DNA from: Paralichthys olivaceus
Lineage: Eukaryota > Chordata > Actinopteri > Pleuronectiformes > Paralichthyidae
Reading direction: 5' to 3'
Length of the DNA stretch: 64,000 bases
NCBI RefSeq assembly: GCF_024713975.1
Contig: NC_091093.1
Location: 21,982,001 to 22,046,000 of the forward strand
Shown here: positions 21,901 through 24,900 of the stretch, piece after piece
How the letters are laid out: each line of letters begins with the position of its first letter
How positions within the stretch are numbered: the first letter of the stretch is position 1
Notes under the pieces: generated by a model
Database searches by the model: none
The model's input: the letters and a program-made list of their open reading frames with translations, nothing else
Told to the model about the DNA's origin: nothing
Translations under genes and position numbers: made by a program

Positions 21901-24900
21901 TATCAGGATCTGGACAAAAGAGAGCGGCTGGAGGAGCTGGGGGAGGCGCTGTACAAGGCAGCGTCTGCAGAGAAAATAGACAAGTAATCCTGATCTTCAC
22001 TGGCCTGAACCCTACTGGCTATCAGCGGAACTGCACATGACTCTAAAACTGCTTCCCTCTGTCCCACACCACCCTCTAGTCCTCCTTGGTAGTGTCTCAA
22101 TTATCTTAAGTGGCTTTCTGGTCTCTCATCACCAATCTCCTTAAAGCTTGCTGCAGCCCACTGTCCACACATCTGACGCGAATATTTTCTACTAGATCAT
22201 GACTCTCTTCCTACATCTGGAGTCAGTTTAAACCAGGGGATCTGGCACAGTTTGACCTCTTGGACGACTTAATCCTGCAAAGACTCATCTCCCTTAGAGC
22301 AACACTATGTAACTTTTACTGAGCAACAGCACCCCCTGCAGCCGCACATACTGAATAACTCTGTTGGGCTAAGGTCTGACTGAGTAGTCCCACTGAAAGA
22401 TGGCTATTGCCCATGATCCCCAAGTTCCTGACCGCGAAGAGCTGCAGCTGTAACAAACTCAACAAACTCTGTTCAGAATTCTTCACATTTTATAAGTTTC
22501 CACACTGTATATTGGAGGTAAACACGAAGAAAGAAATCACTTTAATGACTTCTACATCTTTTCAACTGATCAACAGCTCAGCGTTAATCATGAACTTGCT
22601 GGATCTAATTCTGGTTATTTAAGCTCTATCTATCAGTCGGTTATACACTTCTCTGGGAATAAAAGTGGCACCATTCTCCCTATTCTAACTCAATGAACCA
22701 TCAAACTCGTTTTGAGGCAGCTTTTTCTAAGGTTACATTAAAAAAAAGCTGCATAGTGTTGCTTCAAATTTAAATAACAGAACTGGGGGAAAGAAAATTC
22801 TCAAAACAGTTCATTAAGAATTGTGCACTAACAACCAGAAGATAATATTCTTCTCCAATCTGTTCCTTCTCTGAGGCTAACCTGAATTAACATTAAGCAC
22901 CATGTTGTATTGTGGAGTAATTTAATTTAAATGTGCAAACAATGATGAGTTTTAAGGTCTCAACATAAGGCTCAGTAAACCTGATTTCCTGCTTTTATCT
23001 AAAAATATTAACTGAATCTAAGGTGCTGTACTGTATAACTATCTTTAGCTGATCAGTGCATGTAAATGTGGTTGAAGTTATGAAATGATTAGAAATACCA
23101 GTTTGAAGTTGTAGAATAGTAATTGTTTTCTTTTTATATGTATCACTGTTTGCACTGTGATGCTCTTATCAGATACAGCGTGCTTTATTGTGAAAGCACC
23201 ACGATATGGTGGATATTAATATGACATGACAATTAAAATGGACTCAGATATTTATCACGCATGAGGTGCCTGTCTCTTTGTCTTAACTGCATCATGTATT
23301 TTGACGGACCGCTTCTTAATTTCCTGCCAGATTTCCTCTTGTTGCACAAATGTCTTCTATACTCCCCTCAACTAATCAGCTGTAACACGTCCGCACTGCA
23401 AAAACACTGCACTTCAAGTCCTGTACTTTGCTGCATCTCAAGGGTAAATGATTAATAAGTAAAAGTGAAAAGACAAAATATTTTTAGATATTGCTCAAAG
23501 TAGTTTTATATGGTCCCTGTGAATGGCCGCATTTACTCTACTCCTGAAACCCTGGCTAGTTCAGTGATGCTCATTCCTCAGACTGACTTTCAGGGTGAGA
23601 AAAGATGTAATGCCAACTTTAACTGAATCATCAATTGATTATTATTTTCATCATTATTAAGTTGTGCACTTCTCGTTGTGAAAGAAAGAATGAAACTTGG
23701 CTGCAGATAGCTACAGGGATTAAGTTTGACATGTCCTCTATTCTCCGTAGACCAGATTCTTGGAACACCATTATCAGCCCTGATGCCGGTATGTTGAGGA
23801 AGTTGGTTAGAGATCGCAACTGCCGTCCAGTGCTCCGAGGGATTTTTGAAAGTCTCCTGCATTACCTAACACAGGGTCTGCCCAGGTGGTCCACCATAAA
23901 GAGAAACCTGGAGAAGCCGGGATCTGACATTGTGGCAACCAGAAACACAGCAAAGGATTGTCCTGATCAGAGAACAGAGAGTTCAGTGAAACAGACCCAG
24001 AGTCAGGCAATGATTCAGTTTCCTGAGGAGCATCAAAAGACACAGAGAAATCCTGAGACCGGTTCCAAGATCTTCAGAAAATGCTGGTCGGATCTGAAGA
24101 GAGACAGATTGCCAAGCAGATATGGAGAAGACGTAGTACCTCGGCGTCTCACCACTTTCCAGCTCCTCCAGTCTAAATTCACCAGGTCTACACCTAAACC
24201 TCCCATCACCCACCAGAGGGAGGTAGGAACCCTGTCCTCCAGCAGAGGTGTGGCAGGTAAAGTGAGCCACAACCGTGACAGTGAGGGAGAGACGCTCAAG
24301 AAGGACCAAGCTAAAAGAGGAAAAGGACTGAAGAGAGGAGGCAGTGTGAAGGACATGGTGGCCAGGTTTGCAATGGCTGAGCAGAAAGAAATGGTACTAA
24401 ATATGCAGAAGAAACAGCCAATCAAGCCGAGACTCATTGGGCGAGGGATCCTCTTATCTTCCTTGATGGAGAGGTTTGAGACCATTGCCACAGTTTGCAG
24501 GGGAAGTGACTTGAAATGTTCCCTTAAAATATCATCTCAAGGAAATGACAAGGAGGTGACGGGCAGTATAAAACAGAAGGTGGCTTGTTATGAAAAAGGT
24601 CAACGACAGGCGGTAGATCAAACTGTTAACAAACAAAACCTATACAAGGCAATGAAAAGTAAACCTAGACAAGAGCAAAGACCAGAGCAGACAGTGGACA
24701 TTTTAACAAAATCAGACACAAACCTGAGAGAAAATAATAGTTTGAAAGTAGAACAAATGAGACAAATGGGTTATCAGCCTCCAGATCAAAAGGTTGATTG
24801 TCATTGTTCATTAAAACATGTGAACAGTCAAGCTAATGATAACGATGTTAAGGACTGGAGGTCTGAAGCGGGATGTGGTCTAATTCGGACCAGAGCTGAT

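Follow-up and report, generated by a model that had tools for sequence, protein, structure and literature searches.

The adprhl1 gene and the end of its seventh exon

The window analyzed here is a stretch of 64,000 nucleotides from Paralichthys olivaceus, and an adprhl1 gene of eight exons was rebuilt from its sequence on the + strand at 18950-25842. Exons 1-7 (18950-19163, 20572-20736, 20822-20947, 21048-21188, 21375-21502, 21593-21725, and 21818-21983) code for an ADP-ribosylhydrolase-like core. Exon 8 (23751-25842) codes for a Ser/Lys-rich tail of 696 residues without a recognized domain and ends in a stop codon. Exons that by eye resemble dcun1d2 lie upstream of adprhl1 at 13000-15155, and intron 1 of adprhl1 contains an (AC)27 repeat without mismatch (19793-19846) and a 96% (CT)27 repeat (20265-20319). 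Elsewhere in the window are a tandem array of a 22-bp unit (27516-27714; longer-period forms of 33, 36, and 58) and an array of ACACACTGAT-type units (44830-45281; periods of 10, 22, and 32), from which long open frames on the - strand, probably spurious, arise. Two long open frames on the + strand were also noted; that at 57785-58645 contains a CNH domain (E 5.4e-8) and presumably resembles TGFBRAP1 or VPS39, while that at 63255-63800 gave only a sub-threshold Pfam match.

The original prediction placed a stop codon and a 5' splice site on the same bases at the end of exon 7, and the rebuilt gene bore out both the coordinates and the phase. Positions 21979-21987 read GAC AAG TAA. The last six bases (21982-21987) are the final codon and stop of a 358-aa reading, and the G, T, A, and A are also positions +1 to +4 of a candidate donor, CAA/GTAATC, after 21983. 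When exon 7 is read through, the product has 358 residues, ends in Lys, and has a mass of 40.4 kDa. When 21983 is joined to 23751, exon 8 adds 696 residues and the product has 1054 residues before the stop, with a mass of 119.2 kDa and Lys358 in both forms. Thus the two predicted frames, the length of the addition, and the unchanged Lys at the junction were all reproduced. The 1767 bp between the two positions (21984-23750) are intron 7, or the 3' UTR of the short form if they are left unspliced. Intron 7 is the sole phase-2 intron among the seven of adprhl1, and only here does read-through stop immediately; reading into introns 1-6 would append 12 to 81 residues.

Exon 8 is real coding sequence, with an open frame far above chance. 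Its frame runs for 739 codons from stop to stop, while the window, shuffled 100 times with dinucleotides preserved, gave no frame longer than 240 codons. Codon-position bias was found in exon 8 as a whole (p = 3.5e-7) and in each of its halves (p = 0.0036 and 2e-7), and was absent from intron 7 (p = 0.15) and from the 3' flank (p = 0.57). A pyrimidine-rich acceptor with the matching phase had likewise been predicted before 23751, and it was found there: intron 7 ends in cctctattctccgtag, followed by ACC from 23751, with 14 pyrimidines in 18 positions and in frame with exon 7. Only 7 of the 102 AG candidates in 21990-23900 keep the full frame, and among these seven 23751 is the richest in pyrimidines, the next being 23685 (12/18). 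One match to the branch-point pattern yUnAy lies 21 nt upstream of the end of the intron.

These features bear on whether exon 8 is joined to exon 7 at all. It could instead belong to a separate transcript, with its own promoter or a different donor, as the ATG close to the start of exon 8 and the weakness of the exon 7 donor (see below) might suggest. However, the acceptor, the branch-point match, and the phase suit exon 7 alone among the first seven exons, since joining exon 8 to any of exons 1-6 leads to an early stop and the full frame is obtained only with exon 7. In addition, a chicken gene of eight exons is in print (PMC8427608, available in part), and transcripts with exon 8 are predicted in frog and mouse according to the accessible portion of PMC7390403. 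We therefore consider a separate exon 8 transcript highly improbable.

The core protein and the 696-residue tail

The 358-residue core matched Pfam family PF03747 (E 2.6e-56), and its residues 1-354 aligned to residues 1-351 of the 357 in human ADPRH (ARH1; PDB 3hfw) with an E value of 2.6e-98. The two proteins are thus homologous over nearly the whole length of the core, and the ADPRH chain stops where the adprhl1 tail would start. Because the 358-aa form matches ADPRH nearly end to end, it is a whole domain rather than a truncation, and by this alignment we take it to be a complete ADP-ribosylhydrolase fold. In the same alignment, the core has Ala in place of human D56 and Glu in place of D302 and D304, with D55 retained, so that the ADPRH motifs SDDT and DSDS, named in the available part of PMC9738213, become SDAT and ESEA. 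The same pattern, with the equivalents of D56, D302, and D304 lost and D55 retained, is described for mammalian ADPRHL1 in the portion of PMC4990356 at hand. With lengths of 126 and 141 bp, exons 3 and 4 match those of mouse Adprhl1 (PMC7390403), a comparison limited to these two sizes. Fold, aspartate losses, and exon layout all agree with an assignment of the gene as a putative orthologue of ADPRHL1 (ARH2).

The tail contains 110 Lys and Arg and 90 Asp and Glu residues. A search of Pfam with E values up to 10 gave no match to it, and a search of the PDB with E values up to 5 gave two rows (E 1.3 and 1.7), which we took as chance, and hence no relative. Pattern searches for relatives of the tail gave three matches in viral contigs and nine in prokaryote genome contigs; none was confirmed, as expected for collections of viruses and prokaryotes. 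In a single-sequence AlphaFold model of the tail, the mean pLDDT was 35, with 34 of the 696 residues at 50 or above and 662 below; the better residues were mainly 14-41, within two predicted helices. A poor model of this kind does not prove that the tail would be disordered.

Splicing or read-through at exon 7

The donor at the end of exon 7 has no G at -1 or +5 and scored 3.52 bits; this and the other donor scores come from an approximate donor matrix. It ranks sixth of the seven adprhl1 donors (the other six range from 3.09 to 11.1 bits), and its score is reached by 12.4% of the 8057 GT dinucleotides on both strands of the window. Intron 7 is the longest of the seven introns, length being compared within the gene only. 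The donor of intron 2 is slightly weaker (3.09 vs 3.52 bits), yet the reading frame survives only if intron 2 is spliced out; a low donor score alone hence does not imply skipping. RNA folding around the exon 7 donor was unremarkable (z = 0.59; 146 of 200 shuffles folded at least as well), and the idea of a hairpin masking the donor was dropped on this value.

The overlap of stop and donor is in itself ordinary. Any phase-2 intron that starts with GTAA or GTGA reads as a stop when it is left unspliced. With the same approximate matrix, 67% of phase-2 donors, or about two thirds, would do so, and five of the seven adprhl1 donors start with GTAA or GTGA. The unchanged residue at the junction comes equally cheaply, because AA followed by either A or G codes for Lys. 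The overlap and the shared Lys are therefore not special, and gene endings of this kind are common.

Under one reading, splicing of intron 7 is constitutive and almost every mRNA codes for 1054 residues; the stop at 21985 would then be no more than the usual spelling of a phase-2 GTAA donor. The frequency of such donors fits this reading, as does the preservation of exon 8 as 696 open codons. So does the count of poly(A) signals in intron 7, which is at chance: three AATAAA or ATTAAA hexamers (at 22658, 22737, and 23232) were found and 2.42 were expected, and at least three occurred in 47% of 500 shuffles. Against it stand the weak donor and the data from other vertebrates. In frog, exons 1-7 code for a 40 kDa protein, and a protein of this size is reported from frog and mouse heart alongside forms of 23-25 kDa, while probes for exon 8 showed little signal as the Xenopus heart formed (PMC7390403, as far as available). 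Constitutive splicing is thus unlikely in our judgment.

Because their number is at chance level, the signals in intron 7 alone do not show an internal poly(A) site. The AATAAA at 22658-22663 is a candidate signal for the short form, and the ATTAAA at 23232-23237, followed by a GT/T-rich stretch, is an alternative candidate, both on the + strand. For the long form, two AATAAA on the same strand (26430 and 26517; 26430-26522) are candidate signals. A 20-nt inverted repeat, 90% complementary (22298-22317 and 22744-22763), bounds a 466-bp stretch of intron 7, and the AATAAA at 22658 sits inside this stretch (22298-22763). Its 15-base end pattern, with up to three mismatches, had seven matches in the window (2.44 expected), two of which are the arms themselves. 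A small transposon at 22298-22763 was considered and dropped, since 8 of 40 shuffled versions of intron 7 contained an inverted repeat of equal quality. Searching the window against Rfam at gathering scores gave no family, in intron 7 or elsewhere, and blastn of intron 7 against the rest of the window gave no other match.

The opposite reading takes the 358-aa form as the working protein, with exon 8 rare or used outside the heart, for example in the gut. The scant exon 8 signal seen while the frog heart forms is in keeping with it, as is the weak exon 7 donor, and a 100 kDa species was reported in tadpole gut in the accessible text of PMC7390403. But a frame of 696 codons that is hardly used should decay, and codon bias is present in both halves of exon 8; moreover, the parts of the published accounts at hand report or predict an exon 8 for frog, mouse, and chicken as well. 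We regard this reading as quite unlikely.

We consider it probable that exon 7 is instead a composite terminal exon, at which splicing from a weak donor competes with read-through and so determines whether the short or the long protein is made. Exon 7 has a donor that may be optional and a stop that is read if the donor is ignored, its 5' splice site is weak, and the intron that follows is long in the within-gene comparison. Human composite terminal exons show the same pattern of weak donor and long intron (PMC3708835, in part), and such exons have been described as a loss of donor recognition whose resulting mRNAs escape nonsense-mediated decay (PMC5928244, in part). At adprhl1, the ADP-ribosylhydrolase-like fold would already be complete when exon 7 has been transcribed. 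If U1 snRNP were too slow to engage the weak donor at 21983, read-through would carry the transcript into the stop that overlaps this donor; cleavage and polyadenylation would then follow within intron 7, or the RNA would extend unspliced to the distal site, and in both cases the 358-aa protein would result. Nonsense-mediated decay should spare either short mRNA, because no exon junction follows the stop. If the donor at 21983 were used, exon 8 would append the 696-residue tail, which has no recognized domain. We infer that both mRNAs are made in P. olivaceus with cleavage and splicing in competition, and that the short form would be dominant in heart, as the frog data suggest.

Possible significance in heart and comparison with known systems

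Publications on frog, mouse, and chicken already include a long exon 8. In X. laevis and mouse, transcripts with this exon are predicted, the mouse one with low confidence (PMC7390403, available in part). For the chicken gene, the accessible part of PMC8427608 gives eight exons, a protein of 1,934 aa, and two splice variants. The primers used for RT-PCR in chicken begin at the exon 6/7 junction, and the printed product is 260 bp (PMC8427608). At 260 bp the reverse primer falls on in-frame TGA TGA, while at 258 or 261 bp the frame would be open. Since the primer would lie on in-frame stops, the chicken product should end in the 3' UTR soon after exon 7; this hints, if weakly, that the assay likely reads the short form.

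The gene has been linked to the heart in several vertebrates. In frog, heart chambers fail to grow after knockdown of ADPRHL1 (PMC4990356 and PMC7390403, both in part), a human conduction disorder has been linked to an ADPRHL1 missense variant (PMC6805929, in part), and the Figure 2 legend of PMC9641957, the portion available, counts ADPRHL1 among the top-ranked genes whose isoform usage shifts in cardiomyopathy. By contrast, mice that lack the 40 kDa form while keeping those of 25 and 23 kDa are described as normal (PMC7390403).

The composite terminal exon could be part of a conserved, tissue-regulated switch in the heart and muscle of vertebrates. Selection would then keep the donor weak, the splicing state would set the ratio of a 40 kDa pseudoenzyme to the 119 kDa protein, and the tail would anchor the protein to the myofibril or to a partner. 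The splicing state would in turn reflect the activity of U1 or of an RNA-binding protein, perhaps altered in heart failure. We hold such a switch to be conceivable but doubtful; a cardiac switch is unproven, because the frog exon 8 probes gave little signal in heart (PMC7390403, in the part available). If true, a regulated and conserved ratio of two proteins in heart would be new. If the weak donor sets the ratio of short to long forms, splicing could alter the protein without altering total expression, and knock-outs of exons 1-7 or antibodies against their product could not separate the two forms. Medaka adprhl1 crispants and mutants show heart defects (PMC12044080, in part), which makes a test in fish practical.

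Among the closest gene structures, adprhl1 of Xenopus laevis, mouse, and chicken is like that described here in having a long 3' exon 8 beyond exons 1-7, and the chicken protein differs in length (1,934 aa in all vs 1,054). The available portions of the frog, mouse, and chicken accounts (PMC7390403 and PMC8427608) describe neither the exon 7 donor nor its overlap with a stop, and we found no description of this overlap in the partly accessible literature naming the gene. The closest mechanistic parallels are the intronic polyadenylation of the IgM heavy chain and of CstF-77, as presented in the accessible parts of PMC3708835 and PMC5928244. Both have a weak 5' splice site and a long intron, as adprhl1 does, and in both, read-through yields a different, shorter product. 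In adprhl1, unlike these two, the intronic poly(A) site is a candidate only and the stop is spelled in part by donor bases, which means that the short form would gain no residue of its own.
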